A DNA stretch of 18,251 bases. Origin: Tannerella sp. Lineage in GTDB: Bacteria; Bacteroidota; Bacteroidia; Bacteroidales; Tannerellaceae. Both the position numbers and the translations under genes were made by a program. The notes below the pieces were generated by a model. That model was not told the origin of the DNA. It did no database searches and worked only from the letters and a program-made list of their open reading frames with translations. The stretch is from NCBI GenBank assembly GCA_031272655.1, contig JAISTJ010000067.1, forward strand, positions 1 to 18,251, given 5' to 3'. Below, in pieces: positions 1,228 through 15,701 of this stretch. How positions within the stretch are numbered: the first letter of the stretch is position 1; every line of letters starts with the position of its first letter.

Positions 1228-1809
1228 ATGAGACTGTACCGTACAGATGAAATTTTACATCGCGAATTTCCTTTCACTGACGATAAACGCCTGAGGAATA
1301 TTTACATGAGTTACTTTCCGCGCCTGCTTCGCTTTGCTATCGAATATGTTGATACTAAGGAAGATGCGGAAAATATAATTCAGGATATCTTTACGTATAT
1401 ATTGGAAAACCGGCACACAATCTGCATCAATACTACGCTTAACGCATGGCTCTATGCGATAGTGAGGAACAAGTGCATTGATTTCCTGCGGCACAGGCTT
1501 GCCGTCGAAGAGGGCAACCGTCATCTTCAGGATTCGTTCGTACTTGAACAGAAAATCAAACTCCAGTCGCTGCAGTTTTTCGACGACGAACTGACGGAAG
1601 ACACCGACGCCACGATTCAAGCCATCTATGACGCCATAGAGAGCCTCCCCGAACGATGCCGCCGGATTTTTAAGATGAACAAACTTGAAGGCAAAAAATA
1701 CAGCCGTATAGCGGAAGAGCTGGGCATATCCGAGAAAACGGTTGACAACCAGATGGGAACAGCCCTCGCAAAACTCCGTGAAAAACTCAAGCGGCGACCG
1801 CCCAAATGA
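1228..1809 (+). CDS. ECF-type RNA polymerase sigma-70 factor (Bacteroidetes PUL type)
   Basis: This 193-residue protein has the two-domain layout of extracytoplasmic-function sigma factors. Region 2 spans about residues 25-92 and includes YFPRLLRFAIEY, the acidic DAENIIQDIF helix and the AWLYAIVRNKCIDFLR core. Region 4 spans about 130-185, with the LPERCRRIF helix followed by the helix-turn-helix YSRIAEELGISEKTVDNQM. This resembles the large Bacteroides sigma-70 family that pairs with FecR-like anti-sigma factors to switch on glycan uptake operons. The partner is presumably the fecR product at 7174-8238, although that gene is about 5.4 kb away and on the other strand. The likely target is the susCD promoter region between fecR and susC. 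Ending at 1809, it converges on susD. The start at 1228 is the first in-frame ATG after the promoter box. Confidence 0.95.
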   Translation: MRLYRTDEILHREFPFTDDKRLRNIYMSYFPRLLRFAIEYVDTKEDAENIIQDIFTYILENRHTICINTTLNAWLYAIVRNKCIDFLRHRLAVEEGNRHLQDSFVLEQKIKLQSLQFFDDELTEDTDATIQAIYDAIESLPERCRRIFKMNKLEGKKYSRIAEELGISEKTVDNQMGTALAKLREKLKRRPPK

Positions 1810-1879: not shown

Positions 1880-3424
1880 TTACAGCGGGTTTTGGTCTGC
1901 GGGAGTGATGTTTTGGTTATAGTTCAATTCCGTTTCCAACGGGATTTGGAATGTGAAATGACCCGCCGGATGCGACAGTTTCTCCAAATGATTGGCAGAG
2001 CTTGCCCTGTCAATCCCGATATTCCATCGCTTGTTGTCATAGAACTCATGTCCTGCTTCTCCCCACAACTCGATACGCCTGTGCAGTTGAATTTCTTTGA
2101 ACAAGGCATCGCCCGTAGCGGAAGACTTTACATAGCCCGGATCACGCTGCGACACTAAAGAATACAGGGTATTTTGCGCTGCGGCGTCATTTCCGGAGCG
2201 CTGCTCCGCCTCTGCCTTTGCAAGATACATTTCCGAAGCCCGGATGTAGATTTCATCCTGATTATAAGCTGTATTATCGCGCAAGGTAGAAGTCGCCCAT
2301 TTTAACTGGAAGTATTTTTCTACCAGAACGGTCGCGTCAGACACAGGATAAGTGTATTCAAACGGCTCGGATGTGAAGTTCTTCTTGCGATAGTCAGTTT
2401 CGGGAATCTGGTCGTATAGACGTTGATCTATAGCGAGCCACGACGTCTGTTGAGAACCGCCATAACCGCCCTCACCGTAGATATTCATCCACGCATCAAA
2501 CGAAGATTGAGCCTTGTTTGAATTTGAAGAATAGAAATGACCGAATATAACTTCTTTTTCCATGACTGTGAAGCCTTTAGTCGTATAGTCTTCTTCATTG
2601 AAAAGTTCAGGGTAGGCGTTAATCACGTCTGAAGCCGCCGAAATAGCCGTTTGCCATTCGCCCATTGTCAATGCCGCACGCGCAAGCACTACCGATGCGA
2701 AACTTCCGTCTATATCATCGCGTTTGTCTGTCATATAATTTCCTGAAACCTTAAACAGCTGAACGGCTTCGGTAGCGTCATCAATAATCTGTTTCCAGAC
2801 TTCGGCTGAAGCGGCGCGAGGTTGCGCCACATTAGTAGTTGTTGTGTAAAGAGGCACTCCGGCTTTGTCTTTTCCGCCATGAAGGTAGTCGTCCTGAAAC
2901 AACCACATCAGATAGGTATAAGAAAAAGCCCTGATAGTCAGCGCAGAAGCTTTAAATGTCATTACGGCCTTATTTTCATCCGATAAATCCGACAAATTCA
3001 GGCTTTCCGGCACTGCAGCGATAATCTGGTTGGCATAAAAGATGTATTTATAGAAATTTCTCCAGAAGCATACGGGTAGCGGCGAGATTTGAGTCTGCCA
3101 GTCCCGAAGCCTGTAATCATCATCTAACCATCCTGATTTAACTTTCACAACGTCATTTCCAATAAAATTCAAACGTATGTGCAATACCGCCAAATTCCTG
3201 TCGTTTACAGACCCTGTTCCATAATCATGAATCTGCGACGTCAGGGCGGTTACCATCGGCTCAAGTACCGAGTTAGGATCTTTTAAAACCATTTTTTGAA
3301 TATCGGCTTGGGTCATCCGATCCATCGGGTCAATCTCCAACAGGTCGTTACATGAGAATAAAAAGGCTAAACAGCTTATACTCAACAGCCATATATGGTT
3401 TGTTATTATTTTATATGTGTTCAT
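1880..3424 (-). CDS. SusD/RagB-family glycan-binding outer membrane lipoprotein
   Basis: SusD-like proteins sit on the outer face of the outer membrane and act as a lid on the SusC channel, delivering oligosaccharides to it. This protein of 514 residues has normal family length. It begins with a lipoprotein signal whose lipobox is LFSC, with Cys25 as the lipidated residue, followed by the typical NDLLEIDP. The body has family landmarks: a helical TPR-like core around ALTIRAFSYTYLMWLFQDD, the region VPLYTTTTNVAQPRAASAEVWKQI in two stretches, and the C-terminal RASEMYLAKAEAEQRSG and RRIELWGEAGHEFYDNKRW motifs. It starts 23 nt downstream of the susC stop and is surely cotranscribed. The ligand cannot be read from sequence, because SusD binding sites vary. 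Identity as SusD family is firm; the substrate is unknown. Confidence 0.95.
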   Translation of the reverse strand: MNTYKIITNHIWLLSISCLAFLFSCNDLLEIDPMDRMTQADIQKMVLKDPNSVLEPMVTALTSQIHDYGTGSVNDRNLAVLHIRLNFIGNDVVKVKSGWLDDDYRLRDWQTQISPLPVCFWRNFYKYIFYANQIIAAVPESLNLSDLSDENKAVMTFKASALTIRAFSYTYLMWLFQDDYLHGGKDKAGVPLYTTTTNVAQPRAASAEVWKQIIDDATEAVQLFKVSGNYMTDKRDDIDGSFASVVLARAALTMGEWQTAISAASDVINAYPELFNEEDYTTKGFTVMEKEVIFGHFYSSNSNKAQSSFDAWMNIYGEGGYGGSQQTSWLAIDQRLYDQIPETDYRKKNFTSEPFEYTYPVSDATVLVEKYFQLKWATSTLRDNTAYNQDEIYIRASEMYLAKAEAEQRSGNDAAAQNTLYSLVSQRDPGYVKSSATGDALFKEIQLHRRIELWGEAGHEFYDNKRWNIGIDRASSANHLEKLSHPAGHFTFQIPLETELNYNQNITPADQNPL

Positions 3425-3447: not shown

Positions 3448-6400
3448 TTAAAATGTTAGATTAAGTCCTATGGAATAGGATTTTGCCTGCGGGAATCCGA
3501 AACCATTAATAGGCGCACCGTCATACGAAACGCGCGGGTCAAGTCCTTTCTTTGCCGTCAGCAAGAAAAGATTTTCACCGAGAAGATAGATATGCAGGTT
3601 TTGGGCATAAATTTTCTGCGCTGCATGTTTAGGCAATGTGTAACCCAGAGTAATTGACTTCATATTCAGATAACTTGCATTAAATAAATAGAAATCGGAG
3701 TACTGTCCGGCGCTGCCGCCGGCAGGCTGAAAAGATAAATCCCTTGACATTCCTAACATTCTCATCGGATATTTACCGTTGGGATTTTCGGGGGACCACG
3801 TATCAAGCATATCGGTAGAAACGCCTCGACCAATAGTCATTCCTGTTAAATACTGGTATGTCAAATTGATGATTTTGCCGCCTAACTGGTAACTTGCTAT
3901 CATTCCGGCATCAAAATCCTTGAATTTTATGTTGGTATGGAAACCGCCATAAAGCAAAGCTTTGGGCGAGCCGAGTTCAAATCTGGTCGCTTCATTAGGA
4001 TCGGTCGTTGTTACAATGTCGCCTAATTTATGACCCGGGTATTTCTCCAGATCGGAATCATAACGCAATTCCTTGTACAGCAAGCCTATCCCGGTTTCTT
4101 TATCAACGCCGGCATAACGGTACATATACAGGTTGAAATAATCTTTGCCGATGCCGCGAAGATAGTTTTCAGTTACATAGCCATGAACGCCGGGATATAC
4201 CTCTGTGCCTATCTGATCGGGCATTTTTGTCAATTCATTTTTATAATTAGACAAATTAATTCCAACATTCCAGTAAAAGTCTTTATTTTTGACTATGTCA
4301 TAGCCCAAATCCAGTTCAAGACTTGTATTCAGCATTTCCCCTATGTTTTGCGTAGCGGAAGATTGCCCTGTAGATGCCGCTAATGCAACAGACCAGAGCA
4401 TGTCTTTGGTTTTCTTGTTAGAATAATCTAAAGAACCTGTAAAACGGTCTGCAATAATGAAATCCAAACCTACATCAAAGCCGTAATTTTTTTCCCATGA
4501 AAGTGTGGGATTGCCAAATGCGGTCTGTGATACGGATAACACAGGCGTGCCGATAGAACCGGCATTGGAAATCTGCCAGATATCCGTCCAGCTATACAGT
4601 CCTATGTTATTATTGCCGAGCGTGCCATAGTTCACTCTCAATTTCAGCTCGTTTAACCATGGTGCATTTTCTTGCATGAATGATTCCTGAGTTATTCGGT
4701 AAGCGCCGCCTACCGACCAGAAAGTTCCCCATTTGTTGCCTCGGAAACCCGACCATCCATCGGTTCTGATACTGGATGACAAATAATACTTGCCGGCATA
4801 ATTATAATTGGCTCTTGCAAGGTAGCCTTCAAGTGCGCTGCTTTCTTCGCCTCCGCTTAATCCGCTTATTTGCAGAGCATTAGAGAGCGATGGCCTGTCC
4901 ACCATGAATAGATTCCTCTTCGAGCCGCTCATGTATTTACTCGTGCTCCATCTAAATTCATGCCCTATCAAAGCATCTACGTGATGAGAACCGAAATTTT
5001 TGTCATAAGTCAAACGTTGAGTGGAATTTAAAGTCAAATATCTGTACCATGAATTTGAAATTGTGCCGTGATAGTCGCGAGCCGCAGTTCCGCTTTCGTT
5101 ATTGCCGTAACTCACGCTTAACTGGTGAATTTCATCCATATTCAAGTCTATAAATGCCTTAAAATCATTCAGCAACGTTGCTTCCAAATAAGTATAACCG
5201 TTGAGATTATTCCTTGTCGTTTCACTAAGATCCTTGTCAAAATAGACTCCCGGAGAGTAGCCCGGGAAAGTTGTCCTCCTTGTATTCCCAAGAGGGGAAT
5301 CGGTTTGTCCGGTACCTAAATCCCAGATCGGTTTGCCATCTTCGTCATATTTTATCTTGCCGTCCAAATCATGGGCAAACAACGGCCAGGTCGGGGCGAA
5401 AAGCCCTAACCAGACAAAAATATTAGTATTAACGGTACCGCCGGAATAACCGGGGGCGTTTGAATAAGTTCTGGAATACGACAGATTCATGCCTCCTTTT
5501 AACCATTTGGTTATCTGGGTGTTAATTTTCATTTTGGCGGAATACCTGTCGAATGTAGAGCCCATTACATAAGAAGGATTACCAAGGTATCCCAAAGAGA
5601 AATAGTAATCCATATTGTCTGTTCCTCCGCTGATATTGGCATTATACTCCTGACGGAGAACGGTTTTAATAAAGTAGTCCGCCCAATCGTCCTGATACAG
5701 CAATTTCGCGTCGCTTCTGACTTTGCCCGTTGAAGGGTCAATCAAAGTAGAGCCTTCGGGAATGCGATATAACAGATAATTGCCGAGACCATTATCCGCG
5801 CCAAGTGTGTTCCCGTTCATTTTAAACAGGTTATCGGCAGCATATTGGCGCAACTCCTGATCGGACATTGACTTAAACTGCTCTGCCCTGCCGGAATAAT
5901 ACTTGATATAATTATAGTTGCCCTGATATACATATTCGTAATATTTATCCGCATCTGTAATCATATCGAAAAACGGCACTCCTTGGGATGATGTTCCTAC
6001 CCTGACATCAAAATCTATTTTGGGCTTACCGGTTTTGCCTTTTTTCGTTGTAACCTGCAGAACCCCGTTTGCTGCACGTGAACCGTACAAAGAGTTTGAA
6101 GCAGCATCTTTAGAAACTACAATAGACTCTATATCAGACGGATTGATAGAATTTAAGCTCATACTTGTAGGTATGCCGTCAACAACGACCAACGGACTTG
6201 TTCCGCCGGAAATAGACCCCATGCCCCGCACTCGGATATCGGCTTCGGCGCCGGGTTGTCCGGTACTTTGAGCAAACTGGACGCCCGGGACAAGACCCAC
6301 CAACGCTTGAGAGGCCGATGATACCTGCTGGATTTTCATTTGGTCGGCCGAAACCGAAGTTACAGACCCTGTCAGGTCTTTCTTCTTAACCGTTCCGTAA

Positions 6401-7026
6401 GCTACTACAACCACTTCGTCAAGGTTTTGGGCGTCTTCAAACAGCGTGATTCGCAGGTCTGTCTGGTTGCCTACCGTGATTTCTTGGGTGGCGTAGCCGA
6501 TGTAGGTGATTCTTAGTACGGCTTTGGCGTCTTTGACTGTTAAAGAGAACCTTCCGTCGGCGTCGGTACTGATGCCGTTGGTAGTGCCTTTTTCAGCTAC
6601 GTTGGCGCCCGGGACAGGCTCGCCGGTCTCATCTACAATTATTCCCGTGATGCGCTTGCCTGTCTGCTGCGGCATGGGAGCACCAATCATGCGCTTCATC
6701 AGCATGATATTCTTGCCTTCAACGGCGTAAATAACATCCGAATTAGCGAAAGTGTTTGAAAGCACCTCGGCTACCGAAGTGTTCTCGGCATCCATTGATA
6801 TCCTCCGCCTGACATCTATTGCCGTGTTGTCATAAACGAACAGGAAATCGGTCTGCTTTTCTATCTCGTCAAAGAGCGTTAACAACCTCTCATTTCTTAA
6901 ATGAATGTTAATTTTGGCGAGTTGCGAATTTGCCTCTTCTGCGAAAACTGCTGAAAGACAAATAGTTAAAAAAATTAGAGTATTTCTCATAACTCTTATG
7001 GTTTGGTAATTTAAAATATTATTCAT
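3448..7026 (-). CDS. SusC/RagA-family TonB-dependent transporter with STN signalling domain
   Basis: This is an outer membrane active-transport channel for oligosaccharides, powered by TonB-ExbBD. The domains of the 1192-residue protein, in order, are: a signal peptide (hydrophobic run ending near residue 30, before AEEANSQ); an STN signal-transduction domain at about 36-112; a carboxypeptidase-regulatory-like domain at about 125-197 (ITGIIVDETGEPVPGANV); a TonB-box region DEVVVVAYGTVKKKDLTGSV at 203-222; a plug with VRGMGSISGGTSPLVVVDG; and a 22-strand-type barrel ending in the aromatic GLNLTF. The STN domain marks it as a transducer that contacts a FecR anti-sigma factor, which is encoded next door. 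Two starts are possible. The ATG at 7026 gives a long signal peptide, as is common in this family. The ATG at 6990 (MRNTLIFLTI) gives a standard one. I chose the first without strong evidence. The susD gene follows after 23 nt. Confidence 0.96.
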   Translation of the reverse strand: MNNILNYQTIRVMRNTLIFLTICLSAVFAEEANSQLAKINIHLRNERLLTLFDEIEKQTDFLFVYDNTAIDVRRRISMDAENTSVAEVLSNTFANSDVIYAVEGKNIMLMKRMIGAPMPQQTGKRITGIIVDETGEPVPGANVAEKGTTNGISTDADGRFSLTVKDAKAVLRITYIGYATQEITVGNQTDLRITLFEDAQNLDEVVVVAYGTVKKKDLTGSVTSVSADQMKIQQVSSASQALVGLVPGVQFAQSTGQPGAEADIRVRGMGSISGGTSPLVVVDGIPTSMSLNSINPSDIESIVVSKDAASNSLYGSRAANGVLQVTTKKGKTGKPKIDFDVRVGTSSQGVPFFDMITDADKYYEYVYQGNYNYIKYYSGRAEQFKSMSDQELRQYAADNLFKMNGNTLGADNGLGNYLLYRIPEGSTLIDPSTGKVRSDAKLLYQDDWADYFIKTVLRQEYNANISGGTDNMDYYFSLGYLGNPSYVMGSTFDRYSAKMKINTQITKWLKGGMNLSYSRTYSNAPGYSGGTVNTNIFVWLGLFAPTWPLFAHDLDGKIKYDEDGKPIWDLGTGQTDSPLGNTRRTTFPGYSPGVYFDKDLSETTRNNLNGYTYLEATLLNDFKAFIDLNMDEIHQLSVSYGNNESGTAARDYHGTISNSWYRYLTLNSTQRLTYDKNFGSHHVDALIGHEFRWSTSKYMSGSKRNLFMVDRPSLSNALQISGLSGGEESSALEGYLARANYNYAGKYYLSSSIRTDGWSGFRGNKWGTFWSVGGAYRITQESFMQENAPWLNELKLRVNYGTLGNNNIGLYSWTDIWQISNAGSIGTPVLSVSQTAFGNPTLSWEKNYGFDVGLDFIIADRFTGSLDYSNKKTKDMLWSVALAASTGQSSATQNIGEMLNTSLELDLGYDIVKNKDFYWNVGINLSNYKNELTKMPDQIGTEVYPGVHGYVTENYLRGIGKDYFNLYMYRYAGVDKETGIGLLYKELRYDSDLEKYPGHKLGDIVTTTDPNEATRFELGSPKALLYGGFHTNIKFKDFDAGMIASYQLGGKIINLTYQYLTGMTIGRGVSTDMLDTWSPENPNGKYPMRMLGMSRDLSFQPAGGSAGQYSDFYLFNASYLNMKSITLGYTLPKHAAQKIYAQNLHIYLLGENLFLLTAKKGLDPRVSYDGAPINGFGFPQAKSYSIGLNLTF

Positions 7027-7033
7027 AATTTTG
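7002..7033 (+). promoter_or_regulatory. Plus-strand promoter antisense to the susC start
   Basis: TTTG at 7002-7005 and TAATTTTG at 7026-7033 are separated by exactly 20 nt, a full match to the Bacteroidetes promoter consensus TTTG-N19-21-TAnnTTTG. The -7 box touches the susC start codon (7026-7024 on the minus strand). No plus-strand ORF of note follows, but a terminator does at 7101-7134. Initiation would be expected near 7039. Confidence 0.6.
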
Positions 7034-7038
7034 TATGT

Positions 7039-7134
7039 TCATTAAGTTCGACTTCTTGAATTAAAATCTCAATTTTGTTTTAATGGGTATTAAACCCGAG
7101 GTCGGGATGCGCTGGAACGCTTCCCGACTTTTTT
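7039..7134 (+). ncRNA. Candidate cis-antisense sRNA to the susC leader (DonS-like arrangement)
   Basis: The sequence shows a promoter (7002-7033), then about 95 nt without a plausible ORF, then an intrinsic terminator with six Ts. The predicted RNA has a small hairpin with stem GGGT/ACCC (7085-7097) and the terminator hairpin. It is perfectly complementary to the 5' leader of the susC mRNA between fecR and susC. From established knowledge, Bacteroides PULs controlled by ECF sigma/anti-sigma pairs often encode a short antisense RNA at the susC 5' end that represses the system, DonS of the Bacteroides fragilis N-glycan locus being the studied case. By inference, this RNA would dampen susC expression when the glycan is scarce or less preferred. 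The 5' end is estimated, and I see no sequence evidence linking it to DonS beyond position and architecture. Confidence 0.6.
7101..7134 (+). terminator. Intrinsic terminator in the fecR-susC gap, plus-strand orientation
   Basis: GTCGGGA (7101-7107) pairs with TCCCGAC (7122-7128). One T-T mismatch and three further pairs (GCG/CGC) close a 6-nt loop, and TTTTTT follows at 7129-7134. The T-tail is only on the plus strand, so it ends a transcript antisense to susC rather than the fecR message. On the minus strand the same hairpin has no T-run after it, so fecR-susC read-through should be possible. Confidence 0.7.
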
Positions 7135-7173
7135 ATGTTGCAGCAGTCTATTTTTCCTTTCCCATAGGCATAA

Positions 7174-8238
7174 TTATTTGATTGTTATAACATTATTGTC
7201 ATCTCGCGTGTAAGTGTATCTATGCTCTAACTGCAGCACTTTGATAGCCTGCTCTACACCGTCAATAGTATGAAACTTGCCGGTATAATGCCTTGACATA
7301 AAAGGCGCTGCAGTGTCGGCCACTATCTTTACATTATAGAATGAGCTGAGTTTGTCGAAGATGTCGCTCACCTTCTCATCCTTAAAACTGAGCAGCCCCT
7401 CTTTCCAAAGGAAATAGTCCTTATTCGGAATGTTGTCTATTTTTAATACATTTTTGACTGGGCTTGGTACTAACTTCGACGTTATTTGTGCGGTTTTGTC
7501 TTTCGGCTCGTCCATATTTTCAACCGAAACAATCCGGTTGTCGTTAAACGTAACTTTCTGATTTTCTTTCAGTAAATATGGCTCTTTCATGCCTTTCGAT
7601 TTTACCGAGACACTGCCTCTCACAAGCTGCACTTCGGGTTGCGACTGTTCATCATAGTCCGATACGTTAAATTCGGTGCCAAACACCTCTACATCAATAT
7701 GTTTCGTCTTGACATGAAAAGGAACGCCTTCGTCGCGGGTTACATTAAAATATGCCTCCCCGATAAGCGTTACTTCGCGCTCTGCGCCGGCGAATTGACC
7801 CGGATAAACGATAGTCGAGTTTGAGTTGAGCCATACCGTAGTGCCATCACTGAGGGTAAGGTTGGCGCGTTGTCCGGGAGGCGCTGTCAGAGAGTTCATC
7901 GCCTGCACTGCGCTTTCGTTTTTCGGGATAAGCGTTGCAAACATCAGCGCTGCACCTGCAATGAAGATGGCTGCATATTTTGAAACCATCAATATGACGG
8001 TGTTGCGCTTGCGCCTGTTATTAAGATTCCGGAACTCGTCCCACCGATTGTCGGCTTCTACAGCGTCGGTGCAAAGTTTTTCCGAATTTAAGACGGCTTT
8101 CACAGCCAGCATGTCGGCAAACTGCCGCTGCACTTCGTCGTCTTCGGAAGCGGCGCGAAACAACTCTTCCTTCTCTTCCGGAAGGATTTCATCGGAGAAG
8201 TAACGGGCTGTTAAAATATTTATTTTTTCGGTTGTCAT
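7174..8238 (-). CDS. FecR-family anti-sigma factor (inner membrane)
   Basis: FecR-like proteins hold an ECF sigma factor inactive at the inner membrane and release it when a TonB-dependent transducer reports substrate. The 354-residue protein has a cytoplasmic N-terminal domain (about 1-78) with ILTARYFSDEILPEEKEEL, one transmembrane helix at about 81-104 and a periplasmic FecR domain at about 118-214 (APPGQRANLTLSDGTTVWLN, then GEAYFNVTRDEGVPFHVKT). A C-terminal DUF4974 domain runs from about 280 to 354 (WKEGLLSFKDEKVSDIFDKL), which is thought to meet the STN domain of SusC. The linker between the last two domains (about 215-275) is rather long. It lies 147 nt upstream of susC on the same strand. 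It is not next to a sigma gene, unlike the usual sigma-fecR order; the only sigma gene in view is at 1228. No TAnnTTTG box is seen upstream of it. Confidence 0.95.
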   Translation of the reverse strand: MTTEKINILTARYFSDEILPEEKEELFRAASEDDEVQRQFADMLAVKAVLNSEKLCTDAVEADNRWDEFRNLNNRRKRNTVILMVSKYAAIFIAGAALMFATLIPKNESAVQAMNSLTAPPGQRANLTLSDGTTVWLNSNSTIVYPGQFAGAEREVTLIGEAYFNVTRDEGVPFHVKTKHIDVEVFGTEFNVSDYDEQSQPEVQLVRGSVSVKSKGMKEPYLLKENQKVTFNDNRIVSVENMDEPKDKTAQITSKLVPSPVKNVLKIDNIPNKDYFLWKEGLLSFKDEKVSDIFDKLSSFYNVKIVADTAAPFMSRHYTGKFHTIDGVEQAIKVLQLEHRYTYTRDDNNVITIK

Positions 8239-8337: not shown

Positions 8338-10380
8338 ATGAAGAGATTGATAATCAACGTTTTAATTTTTGCGGCTTTTGTTGCCGGATTTGAGGCTTCG
8401 GCGAAAGTAACTGCTGATGCCAAAGTTGATGTAAACAAGTGGATTTCCGCTAATTTCGGAAAGGGGAAAACGCCGCCGTTCTCGTTTGTTTACAACGGGA
8501 TACGGTCGGACGAGTTCATCCGCAAATGGGATTTTTCGTCCGAAGAGTGGTCGAGCGCGGAGCCTAACAGCGTCGGGAAGCATTTCGTATGGCGGGATGC
8601 CGCTACGGGGCTGAAAATTGAGTGCGACGTAACGGGTTTCACGGATTTCGGGGCGGTGGAATGGGTCATGCGGCTTACGAATACATCCGACAAGGATACG
8701 CCTTTGATGGACAGTTTCAAGGTAGTGGACAAGACTTTTGAAACCCGTTCAGACGGCGCTTTTTCCGTTTTGCACGCCCGCGGGAGCATCGGCGCGAGGT
8801 CGGATTTCCTTGTCTCGCAAACGCCGCTTCAGCCCGCAGGGACGCTTCACCTGCAGCCCGAAGGCGGACGCTCGTCCGACCATACGGCTTTCCCGTTTTT
8901 TAACATCATCAATCCCGACGGCAAAGGGGGAGTGGTAACGGCTGTGGGTTGGACAGGCGGCTGGCAGGCCGACATCACCGCCGTGAACGGCAAAAAGGTA
9001 AGCCTGACGGCGGGAATGGAACGGTTCCATCTTTATTTGAAAGCAGGCGAGACCATCCGCACGCCCCGAATAGCGCTTGTTTTCTGGGAGGGTGAAAACC
9101 TTATGGCTGGGCAGAACAAATTCCGCCGCTTTCAGCTCGCCCACTACAGCCGACGGATAGACGGCAAGCTCGCCGAAGCGCCTTACGCATCGGGGTTTGC
9201 AATGACGGGACCGAAACCCTGCACCGAAAACGGTTGCCTTACCGAAGAATTAGCCATAGCCATGGCGCGGAGGATGAAAATGTTCGACATCGTTCCAGAA
9301 ATATTGTGGCTCGATGCGGGATGGTACACCGATTCGGGTGCGCCCAACTATGACTGGTGCGACATCGTAGGCACGTGGACGCCCGACACTACCCGTTTTC
9401 CACGCGGGCTTAAGCCGCTCGCAGACGAGGCTCACAGGCTCGGCGCGGGTTTCCTGCTCTGGTTTGAGCCTGAAAGAGTCAGCCGCTTCTCGTGGCTCGC
9501 CAACAACCATCAGGAATGGCTTCTTCATTCACCGACACGCAACTCGGCGCTGCTCGACCTTGGCAACCCCGACGCCTTGAAGTGGCTTTGCAACCACGTA
9601 GGCGACATGATTGAGCAAACGGGCATTGACATCTACCGTCAGGACTTCAACCATCCGGGCAAATCGTTCTGGACGGCAAACGAGGCGCCCGACCGCATCG
9701 GCATGATGGAAATACGTCATATTGAGGGGCTTTACGCTTTTTGGGACTATCTCATCGCACGTTTTCCAAAGTTAAAAATTGACAACTGCGCGTCGGGAGG
9801 GCGACGGATAGATTTGGAAACGATGTCGCGCAGCTTCCCGCTCTGGAGCTCCGATTACAGCTATCAGGAACCGTGCGGCAAACAAAGTTATTCCTACGGG
9901 TTGAATTTCTTCCTTTCACAGCACGGAGCGGGGATTTTCGACCCGTCGGACTATATGTTTCGTTCGGCGCTCGGGGCGGCGCTCGTTACTAATTTCGACC
10001 TCTATACGCCTGCAAACACGGTCGCCGACATGCAGCAGGTAATGGCAAAATTCAAAAAATACCGCCCTTATTTTTATGAAGACTTCTATCCTTTGACGGG
10101 CATTTTCGACACTACGCCCGATGATATCTGGCTTGCGTACCAGATGCACAATCCTGCCGACAATTCGGGCATCGTGGTGGGTTTCCGCCGCGCACAAACG
10201 GCTTCCGACCGCTATCCCGTTCAGTTACAGGGACTTGACCCGCAGGCTACATACGAGATCTATAATGACAACAACGGACAGACACAGCGCATGACGGGCA
10301 AACAGATGAGCGAACGCCTGATGCTCTGGGCGAACGGCAAGCCTGGCTCCGTTTTGCTGCATTATAAAACAGTTAAATAA
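8338..10380 (+). CDS. Secreted alpha-galactosidase, clan GH-D (GH36-type)
   Basis: A retaining glycosidase predicted to remove terminal alpha-galactose (or alpha-GalNAc) from oligosaccharides, probably in the periplasm. The 680-residue protein starts with a signal peptide (KRLIINVLIFAAFVAGFEAS). It then has an N-terminal beta-sandwich (about 25-280), a catalytic (beta/alpha)8 barrel (about 290-600) and a C-terminal beta-domain ending in GSVLLHYKTVK. Barrel landmarks are WLDAGW (Asp326), LLWFEPERVS, the nucleophile strand YRQDFN (Asp436), the substrate-loop NCASGGRRID (Cys484) and WSSD with the likely acid/base Asp506. The two aspartates are in the places expected for GH36. The YRQDFN form, rather than the KWDMN of classic enterobacterial and lactobacillal enzymes, suggests a Bacteroidetes subgroup of uncertain linkage specificity. 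It is divergent from fecR and is the first gene of the hydrolase block. Confidence 0.92.
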   Translation: MKRLIINVLIFAAFVAGFEASAKVTADAKVDVNKWISANFGKGKTPPFSFVYNGIRSDEFIRKWDFSSEEWSSAEPNSVGKHFVWRDAATGLKIECDVTGFTDFGAVEWVMRLTNTSDKDTPLMDSFKVVDKTFETRSDGAFSVLHARGSIGARSDFLVSQTPLQPAGTLHLQPEGGRSSDHTAFPFFNIINPDGKGGVVTAVGWTGGWQADITAVNGKKVSLTAGMERFHLYLKAGETIRTPRIALVFWEGENLMAGQNKFRRFQLAHYSRRIDGKLAEAPYASGFAMTGPKPCTENGCLTEELAIAMARRMKMFDIVPEILWLDAGWYTDSGAPNYDWCDIVGTWTPDTTRFPRGLKPLADEAHRLGAGFLLWFEPERVSRFSWLANNHQEWLLHSPTRNSALLDLGNPDALKWLCNHVGDMIEQTGIDIYRQDFNHPGKSFWTANEAPDRIGMMEIRHIEGLYAFWDYLIARFPKLKIDNCASGGRRIDLETMSRSFPLWSSDYSYQEPCGKQSYSYGLNFFLSQHGAGIFDPSDYMFRSALGAALVTNFDLYTPANTVADMQQVMAKFKKYRPYFYEDFYPLTGIFDTTPDDIWLAYQMHNPADNSGIVVGFRRAQTASDRYPVQLQGLDPQATYEIYNDNNGQTQRMTGKQMSERLMLWANGKPGSVLLHYKTVK

Positions 10381-10399
10381 TCATAAAATATTACCTGAT

Positions 10400-10427
10400 G
10401 TAACACGAATTAAAAAAATCGTGTTAC
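10400..10427. promoter_or_regulatory. 9-bp perfect inverted repeat overlapping a promoter (candidate operator)
   Basis: GTAACACGA (10400-10408) is the exact reverse complement of TCGTGTTAC (10419-10427), with a 10-nt A-rich spacer. The right arm covers the first three bases of the -7 box of the TonB-receptor gene. There is no T-run after it, so it is not a normal terminator for the GH36 gene. A dimeric regulator bound here would occlude the core promoter. The protein that would bind is unknown and no regulator gene of that kind is in the window. Confidence 0.5.
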
Positions 10428-10432
10428 CTTTG
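10425..10432 (+). promoter_or_regulatory. -7 box of the TonB-receptor gene
   Basis: TACCTTTG matches TAnnTTTG exactly and lies 22 nt before the ATG at 10455. No TTTG is found about 20 nt upstream, where the left arm of the inverted repeat lies instead. It shows that this gene can be transcribed separately from the GH36 gene. Confidence 0.6.
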
Positions 10433-10454
10433 CAGCGAATTAAATACGAATCAA

Positions 10455-12350
10455 ATGAGAACTACATTTTTATTATTGAGTTTATGCGCTGCTACACAGG
10501 TATTTGCGGCGGCTGCGGAAGATGATGACAAGTCGGTTGTTGATACTACCGTCAATCTTCAGCAGATAGTTGTTACAGCCAACAAAATTGCGGTTAACCG
10601 CAACAGCATCCCCCTTTCAATCTCGGTTATAGGCAGGCAGGAGATTGAAGCGAGCGGCGAGTCGGCGTTGTTGACGGTGCTTTCGCATCGCGTGCCTTCG
10701 CTTTTCGTTACCGAAAAGGGCATGACGGGCTTCGGGGTGAATACCAACTCGGCTGGGATGGTCAATATTCGCGGTATCGGTCAGGGTAACAAGGTGTTAA
10801 TGCTTTTTGACGGTCAGCCGCAATGGGCGGGGATATTCGGACATTCGTTGCCCGACAGTTATGTAGCGTCTGACGTTGAGCGTGTTGAGGTTATACGCGG
10901 CCCTGGCTCGTTGCTCTATGGCTCTAATGCAATGGGCGGGGTCATAAATATCATCACCCGCCGCCAACAGGAAGACGGTCGGCATACGCAGGCGAGGGTT
11001 ATGTACGGCTCTTACAACACACAGAAGTACCTGATTAACAACGGATATAATGCAGGCGATTTCAGCAGTTTCGTTTCCGTAAACCACGACCGCACCGACG
11101 GCTTGCGCAAAAACTCCGACTTCAATATTACCAACGGATTCGCGAATCTTGGCTACAGACTCAACGAGAGTTTCAACCTGAAAGGCATTGCGAGCCTTGC
11201 CAAATCGCATAATCAGAACCCTGGCCCGATTGATAACCCTTTGGAAGACAACCTGATGGATATATTCAGGGGTACGGGTTCCGTTAGTTTGACGAACACT
11301 TTTGAACGCTCGTCGGGCGCCGTGCAGCTCTTTTACAATTGGGGACGGCACGAGATAAACAACGGCTATAGTTCCTTTTCAAGCCAGATGCACCCTGCTT
11401 TCCTCTTCAAGTCATCGGATCACAATGCGGGCATTCTTTTGTACCAGACTTTCAGACTGTTCGAGGGCAACAGCTTCACTGCAGGCTTCGACTACAAGAA
11501 TTGGGGCGGGCACGCATGGAACGACAGCCTTACAAACGGGATTACAAGCGAGATTGTAAGCCGTTCGGTCAATGAAATTGCAGGCTATGCTATTGTGCAG
11601 CAGGACTTTTTCAATATCTTGAGCCTCAATGCAGGAGTTCGCTACGAGCATAACGACGCTTACGGCGGACGCCTTAATCCGCAGGTCGGCGTCGCTCTGC
11701 GTCCTTTCACGGGTAACAGCATAAAACTCTCATATTCAGAAGGTTATCGCAGTCCGAACATCCGCGAACTTTATATTTCATACCCTCCTTACTCTATCGC
11801 CAACCCCGACCTGAAACCCGAAACGCTTAAAAACTATGAGGCTTCAATCGGACAGTATCTGTTTGATAATAAGTTTTTTGCCGAACTGACAGCCTATTAT
11901 CTTGATGCCGAAAATCTTATCGAAGCCGTTAACGGCAAACTTACAAATGTTACCAATAAAACCAACTATGGTACGGAGCTTGAACTGTCGTGGTTTCCGT
12001 TGAAGTCATTAAGCCTGAACGCCGTTTACAGCCATCTGATGACGAGCGTCCCGACCGAAGGCGCCCCAAAGAGCATGTTTTTCGGCGAAGCTGCATATAA
12101 AATAGGCGGGCTGACGCTTTCCGCCGACGTCAAGACCGTAAACCGCATGCGCAAGATTGGCGCCGTTAACGAACTGATGTCGTTTTATTACCTGCTTGAC
12201 GCCCGCGTATCATACCTTTTCGGCACGCAACAACGCGGACTGACGCTTTTCCTGAACGGCGAAAACCTCAACGGCAGAAACTACGAAATCTTGAAAGGTT
12301 TCCCCATGCCCAAACAAACAGTGATGGCCGGAATCAACGTGGCATTTTAA
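10455..12350 (+). CDS. TonB-dependent outer membrane receptor (non-SusC type)
   Basis: This 631-residue outer membrane receptor is half the size of SusC and resembles classical siderophore, cobalamin or small-ligand receptors. It has a signal peptide (TFLLLSLCAATQVFA), a TonB-box-like QQIVVTAN at about 36-43, and a plug at about 45-165. The plug contains VNIRGIGQGNKVLMLFDG and the family signature VERVEVIRGPGSLLYGSNAMGGVINI, given here as two overlapping parts of one stretch. A beta-barrel follows, with YSEGYRSPNIRELY and NPDLKPETLKNYE, and it ends in the aromatic GINVAF. It lacks an STN domain, a carboxypeptidase-like domain and a SusD partner, so it is neither a PUL importer pair nor a sigma-linked transducer. 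It sits between two glycosidase genes and has its own promoter with an overlapping inverted repeat. The ligand cannot be told from sequence. It may be a metal chelate, a cofactor or a small sugar. Confidence 0.92.
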   Translation: MRTTFLLLSLCAATQVFAAAAEDDDKSVVDTTVNLQQIVVTANKIAVNRNSIPLSISVIGRQEIEASGESALLTVLSHRVPSLFVTEKGMTGFGVNTNSAGMVNIRGIGQGNKVLMLFDGQPQWAGIFGHSLPDSYVASDVERVEVIRGPGSLLYGSNAMGGVINIITRRQQEDGRHTQARVMYGSYNTQKYLINNGYNAGDFSSFVSVNHDRTDGLRKNSDFNITNGFANLGYRLNESFNLKGIASLAKSHNQNPGPIDNPLEDNLMDIFRGTGSVSLTNTFERSSGAVQLFYNWGRHEINNGYSSFSSQMHPAFLFKSSDHNAGILLYQTFRLFEGNSFTAGFDYKNWGGHAWNDSLTNGITSEIVSRSVNEIAGYAIVQQDFFNILSLNAGVRYEHNDAYGGRLNPQVGVALRPFTGNSIKLSYSEGYRSPNIRELYISYPPYSIANPDLKPETLKNYEASIGQYLFDNKFFAELTAYYLDAENLIEAVNGKLTNVTNKTNYGTELELSWFPLKSLSLNAVYSHLMTSVPTEGAPKSMFFGEAAYKIGGLTLSADVKTVNRMRKIGAVNELMSFYYLLDARVSYLFGTQQRGLTLFLNGENLNGRNYEILKGFPMPKQTVMAGINVAF

Positions 12351-12388
12351 AAAATCCGTTTAATCGCCCGTTAAATCATAAAATTAAT

Positions 12389-12396
12389 TATCTTTG
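12389..12396 (+). promoter_or_regulatory. -7 box of the GH106-GH92 unit
   Basis: TATCTTTG matches TAnnTTTG exactly, 20 nt before the ATG at 12417, in the 66-nt gap after the TonB-receptor gene. No clear TTTG -33 element is seen. No such box occurs before the GH92 gene, which suggests that both glycosidases can be read from here. Confidence 0.5.
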
Positions 12397-12416
12397 CAAC
12401 TTCATTAGAAAAAATT

Positions 12417-15400
12417 ATGATGAGGTTTGGGAAGATTAATATTTTGATAATCACAGTATTACTGCTATCAGGATGCAAACGGACGACTGTTGACGGGGAT
12501 ATTTTGAACGGCGAGACATTCAAAAATCCGCCGCGGGAGTTTGCCGTGCATACATGGTGGCACTGGCTGTCGGGGCAAATCACTAAAGAAGGGATTACCA
12601 AAGACCTTGAATCCATGCGGGCGCAAGGCGTTTCGCAGGCTACGATCCTGAATGCGGGTGCGTTCTACGTCGAAGGGATGCTGAAAGAGGAAACTCCTTT
12701 CGGGTCGGAACGGTGGTATGACATGTTCAGCCACGCATTGAAAGAAGCCGCACGGTTGGACATCACCCTCGGCGTGCACAACTGCGACGGTTGGAGCGCT
12801 TCGGGCGGCCCGTGGATAACGCCCGAAATGTCAATGAAAAAATTCGTCTTCACTAAAACGGCTTTCAAAGGCGGACAAAAAAGCGCCGTCCTGCCGAAAC
12901 CCCTCTGTGACATTGACTTTTACAGGGATGTCGCCGTCATAGCGTGCCGCACCGCATATCCCGCCGCAACAGCCGCAGACCTTCAAGATGTAACGGTGAT
13001 GCTCAACGACACCATTGACGGTAGCGTTTTGAAAGACGGCAGCCCCGAAAGCATGCTGCCGATATTCCAGAATACTTCCGTAACATTCATTTACGGAAAA
13101 CCCGTTACAAAATCCTCAATATCAATACTTTTGAATTTCAAAGGGGCGTTTTATTTCCCTGGTCACAAACGGGTCGGATACACGCTTTCGGCTTCGGACG
13201 ACGGCAAACATTACCGCAAAACGGCGGAGTTTGATACCGAGAAGTTTTACACGCCTCAAAAGATTGATTTCCCGTCAGTTACGGCAAAATATTTCCGCCT
13301 TGAAGTGAGCCGTATTTATAACTTGCGCCCGTGGCATCAGGCGGCTTTCGCGGAGGTGCAACTGCTTGGCGGGGACGAAAAGCCCGTTTACAGCCCTACA
13401 GTGCCGTTTTATCTCGAAAAAGTGGCGTCGGGGCGTATCCTTGACCCTTCAATTATATATCAAAGAGCGGACAGCCTCGATAAAAACCTGATACTCAGCA
13501 AGTTATCAATGATAAACCTTACCGACCGCATGAAGCCCGACGGTGAGCTTGACTGGGAAGCGCCTGAAGGCGACTGGGTTGTGTTCCGCTTCGGATACAC
13601 CTCTACGGGCGCCATAAACGGCCCTGCGACGGTTGAAGGTACGGGTTTGGAATGTGATAAATTGGATACGGCCGCCGTTAACCTGCATTTTCGCAACTTC
13701 CCGCTCAAACTGATAGAAACGGCAGGCGATTTTACTGGTAATACGTTCAAATTCCTGCTTTTGGACAGCTGGGAAAAAGGTTTCCATACATGGACGAAGG
13801 CTTTCCCCGATGAATTTCTGAAGCGACGCGGATACGAGGTAACAGACTGGTTACCTGTACTTTGCGGGGAGACGATGGAGAGCGTTGAAGCTACCGAAGG
13901 CTTTCTGTATGATTTTCGCCTTACGCTCGCCGAGCTGATGGAAGAAAACTATTACAGGCATTTCAGCGACCTGAGCCATAAATACGGTCTGGAGCTGCAT
14001 GCAGAGGCGGCCTACGGCAATACGGGGCCTTATCCGCCGCTTGACGTACTGCGGACAAACAGCATCCTCGACATGCCGATGTTCGAGTTTTGGGCTATCC
14101 CCGACAACGATAACACGGTCAATTACAGGCCTGAAAATCAGGAAGATTGGACTAATTTCGCCGCCTTCACGCATAATTTTTACAAGCCGCGCGTCGTGGG
14201 AGCGGAGGCATACACGGGTTATGCGCACTACAGCGAAACGCCCGCCAATCTCAAATTGTTTGGCGACATGGCTTATTGCGCGGGCATAAACCAGATGATT
14301 TTTCACAGCTACGTGCATCAGGCGTTAGACAGCATGCCTGGCGTAACGCTCGGCGGGCACGGGTCGGTCTTGAACCGCTCAAATCCGTTCTGGAATTATT
14401 CACGCGGATGGCTTGAGTATCAGGCGCGGGTGCAATATTTGCTTCAAAAAGGCGAGATTGCCGCAGAGATTCTTTATTTCATCGGCGACCAGATGCCGCA
14501 GTTCTTCGCGAACAGCTATATTGACAGTCTGCCACGCAACGTGAAGGCTGTTCCATGCAACGCGGATGTGTTGTCGAAACTTATAGTTACGGCCGACGGG
14601 AAGCTCAAAGTGCCTGACAGACAGGAATATGAAATTCTTGTCTTGCCCGATAAGCCGTTAATGACTTACTCGACGATGAAACAGATTGAGCGGCTGAAAA
14701 AAGATGGCGCTACAATCGTCGGAATGCAGCAGGAAGGTTTGATTTCGCTTTCCGATATGATCAGGGAAGGTCATTGCGAACCCTCTCCCCGTCATTGCGA
14801 ACGAAGTGAAGCAATCCAGAAAATAATAGCCAACGCCGCCTTCCCCTGCGAAGACATCAACAATATAGCATTTATCCACAAAAAGACCTCGGATGCCGAC
14901 ATATATTTCTTTGTAAATCAGCTGCAAACAAATGCGGAAAAAGATTTAACATTCCGCGTCAAAGGCAGAACGCCTGAGATTTGGGATCCTTTGACGGGAG
15001 TGATTCATACGCCTGATTATTACGAAGATAACATCGGCATATTGCATGTTCCGATAATCTTTGACGCGGCTCAATCTTTGTTTGTCGTTTTCAGGGAAGG
15101 GAAAAACATTCTTGCCGCTTCACCTGTCCAAAAGCCTTTCACGACAATTATCACTCCGCGCAAAGAGCTTGAAATCAATAATTTCAGTGGTAAAATCATC
15201 TTTCAACCGCTCAACTGCGACGCACCGACCGATTCGATCGAAATTTCAACTTTCGGTTCGTTTACCGATTTTGAACAGCCTATTGTGAAATATTTTTCCG
15301 GTTACGCAACGTATAAGATTGATTTCGAGATTTCCGACGCTGATTTTCTGCAGGAAGCATCAACGGTTTTCCTCAATTTCGGTCAATTTTCGGCTGCCGG

Positions 15401-15659
15401 CGAAGCGACGCTCAACGAAACGCCGCTGGGCAATATCTGGATGCCGAACAGCGATATTCCCGTAACGGGATTGCTCGAAAAGAATAATCATCTTGAAATT
15501 ACTGTCGCTACAACCTGCCGTAATCGCATTATTGGTGACTTGCGGGAATACGGCCGGCTCAAATCGGTATGGAGCCATATTTCGAATGTGCTGACAGCGA
15601 CTTCGGGACTGCAGGATTCGGGCGTAAGCGGACCGGTTAAATTGAAAATTGAGAATTGA
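12417..15659 (+). CDS. GH106-type alpha-L-rhamnosidase, lipoprotein
   Basis: GH106 enzymes are calcium-dependent inverting alpha-L-rhamnosidases acting on pectic and other rhamnose-containing glycans. The 1080-residue protein has a lipoprotein signal with lipobox LLSGC (Cys20). It then has the family N-terminal motif HTWWHWLSGQITKEGITKDL and GVHNCDGWSASGGPWITP, and a discoidin-like insert near 250-310. The barrel follows, with conserved acidic residues at Glu453 (LDSWE), Glu530 (LHAEAAYG), Glu557 (MFEFW) and Glu597 (GAEAYTGY). The C-terminal beta-sandwich holds FSGYATYKIDFE, LNETPLGNIWMP and NRIIGDL. I cannot say which glutamates are catalytic. About 17 residues (785-801) come from a dispersed DNA repeat inserted in frame. 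The last four residues (KIEN) and the stop lie in a heptamer array. GH92 follows after 42 nt and is probably cotranscribed. Confidence 0.9.
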   Translation: MMRFGKINILIITVLLLSGCKRTTVDGDILNGETFKNPPREFAVHTWWHWLSGQITKEGITKDLESMRAQGVSQATILNAGAFYVEGMLKEETPFGSERWYDMFSHALKEAARLDITLGVHNCDGWSASGGPWITPEMSMKKFVFTKTAFKGGQKSAVLPKPLCDIDFYRDVAVIACRTAYPAATAADLQDVTVMLNDTIDGSVLKDGSPESMLPIFQNTSVTFIYGKPVTKSSISILLNFKGAFYFPGHKRVGYTLSASDDGKHYRKTAEFDTEKFYTPQKIDFPSVTAKYFRLEVSRIYNLRPWHQAAFAEVQLLGGDEKPVYSPTVPFYLEKVASGRILDPSIIYQRADSLDKNLILSKLSMINLTDRMKPDGELDWEAPEGDWVVFRFGYTSTGAINGPATVEGTGLECDKLDTAAVNLHFRNFPLKLIETAGDFTGNTFKFLLLDSWEKGFHTWTKAFPDEFLKRRGYEVTDWLPVLCGETMESVEATEGFLYDFRLTLAELMEENYYRHFSDLSHKYGLELHAEAAYGNTGPYPPLDVLRTNSILDMPMFEFWAIPDNDNTVNYRPENQEDWTNFAAFTHNFYKPRVVGAEAYTGYAHYSETPANLKLFGDMAYCAGINQMIFHSYVHQALDSMPGVTLGGHGSVLNRSNPFWNYSRGWLEYQARVQYLLQKGEIAAEILYFIGDQMPQFFANSYIDSLPRNVKAVPCNADVLSKLIVTADGKLKVPDRQEYEILVLPDKPLMTYSTMKQIERLKKDGATIVGMQQEGLISLSDMIREGHCEPSPRHCERSEAIQKIIANAAFPCEDINNIAFIHKKTSDADIYFFVNQLQTNAEKDLTFRVKGRTPEIWDPLTGVIHTPDYYEDNIGILHVPIIFDAAQSLFVVFREGKNILAASPVQKPFTTIITPRKELEINNFSGKIIFQPLNCDAPTDSIEISTFGSFTDFEQPIVKYFSGYATYKIDFEISDADFLQEASTVFLNFGQFSAAGEATLNETPLGNIWMPNSDIPVTGLLEKNNHLEITVATTCRNRIIGDLREYGRLKSVWSHISNVLTATSGLQDSGVSGPVKLKIEN
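14770..14818 (+). repeat. Dispersed 'GTCATTGCGA' repeat inserted in frame in the GH106 gene
   Basis: GTCATTGCGAA occurs at 14770-14780. It recurs as the start of a fuller unit at 14791-14817, which ends in GAAGCAATCC. Within that unit ATTGC (14794-14798) and GCAAT (14811-14815) are inverted. The translated form contains HCERSEAIQ, a peptide string often seen where this DNA repeat has entered reading frames in unrelated bacteria. A 14-nt part (14787-14800) also occurs, inverted, at 103-116. The reading frame stays open through it. Confidence 0.75.
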
Positions 15660-15695
15660 GAATTAAAAATTAAGAATTAAAAATTAAGAATTAAG
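15640..15695 (+). repeat. Tandem heptamer array, eight copies of AATTRAR
   Basis: The units, in order, are AATTGAA, AATTGAG, AATTGAG, AATTAAA, AATTAAG, AATTAAA, AATTAAG and AATTAAG, 56 bp without interruption. The array begins inside the GH106 gene, contains its stop codon (15657-15659) and ends 6 nt before the GH92 start codon at 15702. It therefore makes up nearly the whole GH106-GH92 spacer. Since seven is not a multiple of three, unit gain or loss upstream of the stop changes the phase, although stops are frequent in the repeat. Confidence 0.9.
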
Positions 15696-15701
15696 AGATT
15701 T

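Follow-up and report, generated by a model that had tools for sequence, protein, structure and literature searches.

A putative cis-antisense RNA opposite the susC leader in a Tannerellaceae-like PUL, and the recurrence of its promoter and terminator behind other fecR genes

The gap between fecR and susC in a PUL of probable Tannerellaceae origin is likely to encode a cis-antisense RNA of about 97 nt that would repress susC. The stretch of DNA analysed, 18,251 nucleotides long and referred to here as the window, carries in this gap a promoter and a terminator facing away from susC, placed opposite the susC leader. The same arrangement recurs behind other fecR genes in the same orientation, and across the family the stretch between promoter and terminator folds specifically on the antisense strand. 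An earlier note, drawn from the letters of the window, had proposed a cis-antisense RNA at this place, and that reading is supported by how often the layout recurs, by its orientation and by folding that in the family is specific to the antisense strand. From these features we infer transcription of the antisense strand, pairing with the susC message, repression and promoter occlusion.

Results

The anti-sigma gene fecR (7174–8238, minus strand; Pfam FecR and FecR_C) is followed on the same strand by susC (3448–7026; SusC/RagA family, TIGR04056) and susD (1880–3424; Pfam SusD_RagB and SusD-like_3, with no match in the NCBIfam search). Convergent with susD is an ECF sigma gene (1228–1809, plus strand; TIGR02985), the presumed partner of FecR. 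It lies beyond susD and does not adjoin fecR. The window is contig C23 of a genome of 2.18 Mb that is 72.5% complete. For one window protein the nearest organism-named relatives come from 'Tannerella sp.' MAGs at 86% identity, and one protein without an organism name is closer at 88%; the host is thus probably a member of the Tannerellaceae and not a Bacteroides.

On the plus strand of the gap a perfect TTTG −33 box (7002–7005) is followed, after a 20-nt spacer, by the −7 box TAATTTTG (7026–7033), as the earlier note had described. Since the −7 box has been placed at −12 to −5 (PMC9723704), transcription would start near 7038. With an end at the T tail at 7134, the predicted RNA measures about 97 nt, close to the 95 nt from about 7039 first proposed; both of its ends are predictions. 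Its complement in the susC leader is the stretch about 12 to 108 nt 5′ of the start codon. The start codon of the long susC ORF (7024–7026, minus strand) is embedded in CATAATTTTG, and the −7 box begins at the base that pairs with the A of this codon (CAT at 7024–7026), so that the contact between box and start codon noted earlier amounts to one base common to both. A perfect promoter arose in 35 of 5000 dinucleotide shuffles of 6991–7173. The claim that the unit holds no ORF is true of the RNA as terminated; a mechanical 32-aa ORF on the plus strand (7083–7181), with a hydrophobic end, crosses the terminator.

The terminator hairpin of the predicted RNA occupies 7098–7131 and runs into a T6 tail at 7129–7134; it rests on folding and on compensatory changes in the family described below. 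No terminator of −14 kcal/mol or better with a T6 tail appeared in 400 dinucleotide shuffles of 6991–7173. The plus strand from 7037 to 7138 folds at −30.4 kcal/mol (z −4.3). The sense leader (6960–7140) also folds better than its shuffles (z −4.0) since either strand can form the terminator stem, at −18.5 kcal/mol in the sense and −16.7 kcal/mol in the antisense reading when the T run is left aside, and folding alone therefore cannot tell the strand in the window. The 5′ part of the window's unit folds weakly on either strand (antisense z −0.9, sense z −1.1). A generic scan of the window for sigma-70 promoters and terminators listed neither element, the promoter because such a scan looks for sigma-70 boxes and the terminator probably because its stem has an internal mismatch. 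Rfam gave no matches, for the window at the gathering threshold and for 6960–7200 even at an E value of 1.

Other fecR loci, 243 in all, were gathered from the genome of the window, its genus, its order and its class. Removal of 3 with an incomplete fecR frame, 4 with short 3′ sequence and 9 duplicates left 227 unique gaps, and removal of 9 without a downstream ORF left 218, a non-random sample made up of best-scoring fecR places and places chosen by hand among the matches listed. All gap counts refer to the next downstream ORF, regardless of whether it is susC. In the 130 gaps of 110–300 nt, 85 have an antisense terminator and 8 a sense terminator, with no antisense terminator detected in the other 45; the sequence CATAnnTTTG, which joins start codon and −7 box, lies exactly at the ORF start in 63, and the two features occur together in 48. 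The layout of promoter and terminator that the earlier note suggested seeking at other loci thus recurs. Antisense terminators were found in 7 of 8 such gaps in the window's own genome, 42 of 68 in the genus, 26 of 38 in the order and 10 of 16 in the class outside the order, and the corresponding figures for CATAnnTTTG at the start are 4/8, 39/68, 18/38 and 2/16. The 80 gaps shorter than 110 nt hold 10 antisense terminators, 2 sense terminators and 2 copies of CATAnnTTTG. Over all 218 gaps an antisense-only terminator is present in 95 vs a sense-only one in 6.

An earlier set of 160 gaps gives the same orientation. An exact −7 box with at least three of the four −33 bases and a terminator occurs in 25 gaps on the antisense strand and in 1 on the sense strand, with about 1.7 expected from shuffles. 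CATAnnTTTG is present in 54 of these gaps; in 53 of them the ATG shares the reading frame of the ORF, and in 50 it coincides with the ORF start. Counted by genome, box and terminator occur together in 13 of 29 further members of the order and in 1 of 22 genomes outside it, a single fecR gap having been read in 22 of the former and 17 of the latter. The unit is also present in the window's Tannerellaceae-like genus. Predicted RNA length falls within 78–128 nt in 38 of 52 units. Among units the position relative to susC is kept, while little of the sequence from promoter to terminator is conserved.

The last position of the −7 box is G in 40 of 60 gaps (110–300 nt) with an antisense terminator and in 23 of 79 gaps, whatever their size, that lack one. 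At both n positions G is avoided, in the units as well as in 47 TAnnTTTG sites lying 5′ of genes on contigs of the window's own genome. The −33 box, though perfect in the window, is not conserved among the family units of the 160-gap set. It is weak at the 47 own-genome sites too, where 12 have TTTG at spacings of 19–22, and a conserved −33 box was dropped as a family feature.

The 40 units used to compare folding between strands were chosen for having an antisense terminator together with a −7 box close to the start; the stretch from the start to the terminator had no part in their selection. Its mean z is −2.82 on the antisense and −0.37 on the sense strand, with the antisense value lower in 37 of 40 units (Wilcoxon p 8e-11, a level of significance that is too favourable because the sequences are related) and values of −2 or below in 28 antisense vs 4 sense readings. 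An overlapping set of 51 complete units agrees, the antisense strand being lower in 29 of 30 units from the genus and 20 of 21 from outside it, and the 5′ part alone reaches z ≤ −2 in 39 of the 51 antisense vs 5 of the 51 sense readings. A 5′ part that folds on the antisense strand together with the terminator makes the typical RNA one of two hairpins, an AU-rich hairpin at the 5′ end and then the terminator; the window, with its weakly folding 5′ part, is an exception. Compensatory changes were found in all 11 consensus pairs of the terminator stem among 38 aligned units (MAFFT alignment A1, which took in 38 of the 40 and left out L143 and L037). These counts concern the terminator only, because the alignment aligns the terminator and not the 5′ hairpin. 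The terminator alignment, whose units had been picked by an antisense terminator, contains in its antisense reading 39 cells with G-U and 5 with A-C. A YUNR U-turn loop as the starting point of pairing was considered and rejected; it is not enriched, occurring in 8 of 52 units vs 24 of 185 control terminators.

No close orthologue of the window's FecR was found in the 40 other genomes of the genus searched, where the best bit score is 133 vs 782 for the protein against itself, and the listed identities in genus genomes are about 28–50%, often over part of the protein. The nearest FecR paralogue, at 47%, is locus L003 on contig C195 of the same genome; its next ORF follows after a 22-nt gap with neither a box at the start nor a terminator. 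The loss of boxes and T tail in close relatives, which the earlier note held to count against the antisense unit, is in part what this paralogue shows, in this one lineage only, and a gain or loss of the unit seems to separate the two copies. A search of the genome contigs with SusC returned three loci at 21–28% identity, which were set aside. Genome G023 of the same genus, a single contig that is 99% complete, has no match to the window FecR, and 40 of the 41 genus genomes have one.

Loci from named organisms came from a plasmid collection, whose records are possibly chromosome pieces filed as plasmids; 16 were picked from 116 FecR-matching records, and 15 of them have a downstream ORF. CATAnnTTTG at the start together with an antisense terminator was found in only 2 of the 16, Bacteroides finegoldii (L276) and Phocaeicola massiliensis (L269). 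Among the six Bacteroides loci that of B. finegoldii is the one with the unit, and B. fragilis L268 has neither feature. Parabacteroides distasonis L277 has an antisense terminator and a box variant that differs by one base, weaker antisense terminators lie in the gaps of L270 and L279, both shorter than 110 nt, and L282 has the sole sense terminator of the set; in the remaining named loci, L268 included, no unit was found. Terminators at these loci were judged by eye and then by the detector, which confirmed those of L269, L276 and L277 and added the weaker ones of L270 and L279. An antisense terminator seen by eye at L271 was not confirmed and was discarded. A sigma gene stands immediately 5′ of fecR, on the same strand, in 11 of the 14 named loci with annotation.

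On the sense strand of the gaps, the motif GCCTATG recurs near the end of fecR. It is found on the sense strand of 62 of the 218 gaps (58 of the 130 gaps of 110–300 nt), as the reverse complement in none and as the reversal in 2. In the 160-gap set it occurs in 51, of which 48 have it 2–54 nt past the fecR stop, with a looser TAACC-TTTAAA stretch on its 5′ side. In the window GCCTATG lies at 7163–7169 (minus strand), and a TAAC at 7184–7187, inside the 3′ end of fecR, is a possible, weak −35 partner suggested by the alignment. GCCTATG is perhaps the ECF −10 region of susC. A strict ECF pattern was tried and abandoned: among 59 family genomes from 16 genera it gave only 5 sites, spread over 3 genomes, with none in G000, and the −35 half is regarded as loose because of this rarity. 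The antisense T run begins 19–72 nt from GCCTATG in 25 units, so the antisense RNA would end just inside the sense transcript. For comparison, in 2020 no motif was known for any alternative ECF of B. thetaiotaomicron (PMC7366714), and a paper of 2025 covers later motif searches for single sigmas in that species (PMC12596196).

The susC start at 7024–7026 is probably real, since starts so placed, followed by a signal peptide, are found repeatedly in the family. In the 51 complete units the median position at which the hydrophobic core of that peptide begins is residue 21; it is 19 in 15 box-only loci, 20 in 42 terminator-only loci and 10 in 85 loci with neither feature. A stretch of about 20 residues ahead of the core fits a promoter lying inside the coding start, although assignment of starts to the first ATG could bias these medians.

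Discussion

In the mechanism we propose, housekeeping RNA polymerase would start near 7038 on the plus strand and end at 7134. With no inducer present and the sigma factor held by FecR, the resulting RNA would pair with leaky or left-over susC message, and pairing would either block ribosome loading or leave the message open to duplex cleavage. Once sigma is released, a promoter near 7163–7187 would drive sense transcription across the antisense promoter and the start codon, and the antisense RNA would be both occluded and swamped. A broader form of this proposal, held tentatively and with somewhat less than even confidence, is that Bacteroidales ECF-type PULs share one compact switch, in which the fecR end carries an ECF promoter (TAACC, then GCCTATG), the susC leader is filled by an antisense RNA of two hairpins, and the start codon of susC lies within the antisense −7 box. 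Transcription in the sense direction and initiation on the antisense strand would then be mutually exclusive, and the N-terminal extension of SusC by about 20 residues would be forced by the promoter in the coding start.

The features could be read without any antisense RNA, with CAAAnnTATG as the context in which susC translation starts and the hairpin as a structure of the susC mRNA leader. The overlap of box and start codon, the poor conservation of the −33 box and the ability of the stem to fold on the sense strand, where it is the more stable of the two without the T run and gives the window's sense leader its low z, are all in keeping with such a reading. However, CAAAnnTATG occurs at only 6 of 169 contig starts in the window's own genome, 4 of them susC with the unit, and was for that reason rejected as a general start-codon context. 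The T run sits on the antisense side, across the family it is mostly the antisense strand on which the 5′ part folds, and the excess of G-U over A-C cells favors the antisense reading, in units that had themselves been picked by their antisense terminator. Leader structure alone is therefore an improbable account. Another reading, random noise from antisense promoters, draws on the warning that promoters arise easily in AT-rich genomes (PMC7366714), but a fixed geometry that recurs in many genomes makes it very improbable indeed.

Two further accounts accept that the RNA is made. It could act in trans on other mRNAs, in the manner of FopS and GibS, with its place opposite susC incidental, and of the 14 FopS genes 4 have themselves been assigned to the antisense RNAs (PMC11697453). 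Against this stand the lack of an Rfam match even at an E value of 1 and the contrast between poorly conserved internal sequence and a position against susC that is kept, and we give trans action about as little weight as leader structure. Regulation mainly by transcription rather than pairing, through convergent polymerases and promoter occlusion at the fused start codon and −7 box, is the strongest of these competitors though still unlikely. It overlaps with the preferred reading in that the antisense RNA is made in both, and the fusion in 63 of 130 gaps speaks for it; but the RNA seems to be under structural constraint, which pure interference does not need. Repression of susC by pairing of a cis-antisense RNA remains the reading that we prefer.

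DonS-type RNAs are linked to sigma/anti-sigma PULs, and DonS itself was reportedly described by Cao et al. in 2016. The window resembles such systems in having fecR next to susC and a TIGR02985 sigma gene, the inferred partner, beyond susD. DonS represents a family of antisense RNAs of 78–128 nt that are divergent to susC homologues (PMC7366714). The window RNA would likewise lie opposite the 5′ region of a susC homologue and divergent to it, its length of about 97 nt falls inside that range with both ends predicted, and it has its own predicted promoter, TTTG-N20-TAATTTTG. The window-type layout in Bacteroides (L276) and Phocaeicola (L269) adds to the likeness, and the host, which appears to belong to another, Tannerellaceae-like family, sets the window apart. 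This comparison goes by the description of DonS in citing papers. In B. thetaiotaomicron 32 PUL-associated antisense RNAs are counted, and antisense-susC pairs show positive as well as negative correlation (PMC10994844). For B. fragilis, antisense RNAs at 15 PULs are given, and the DonS family lowers susC expression by a mechanism that, for DonS, is stated to be unknown (PMC7366714, PMC10994844, PMC11697453, PMC9723704, PMC12596196, PMC10861873).

With FopS and GibS the predicted RNA shares a 3′ terminator hairpin, and the repression exerted by FopS is on a susC-like message, close to the start codon (PMC11697453). These sRNAs differ in acting in trans through a shared seed, with RbpB and a single-stranded 5′ stretch (PMC11697453), whereas the window RNA has no match to a known Rfam sRNA family and would be defined by its place opposite susC.

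Plasmid antisense RNAs such as CopA are structured and fully complementary to a leader, and in both respects the proposed RNA is similar. The YUNR loop motif is a feature of these classical plasmid RNAs, and its lack of enrichment in the units marks a difference. The available parts of the PUL antisense-RNA literature, a body that here excludes Cao et al. 2016, yielded no mention of the fusion of start codon and −7 box. As far as that literature could be read, this fusion, the antisense-specific 5′ hairpin and the strand-specific GCCTATG motif are new.

The window RNA would thus be a DonS-type PUL antisense RNA outside Bacteroides, as the earlier note had suggested might be found and as the 'Tannerella sp.' identities of the host bear out; its transcription and its repression of susC follow by inference. 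An RNA layer in the control of glycan uptake would then extend from Bacteroides to other families of its order. The family-wide anatomy adds a testable signature, CATAnnTTTG at the susC start with a downstream antisense terminator, by which the unit can be sought without RNA-seq, and GCCTATG with a looser TAAC may be a promoter motif for ECF sigma factors of the PUL type. Elsewhere in the window, the plus strand from 8338 to 17990 carries a row of genes for Melibiase-domain, TonB receptor, GH106 and GH92 proteins, which possibly form a PUL for a rhamnose-containing glycan; the best model for the TonB receptor is a B12 receptor, with a score below the cut-off.
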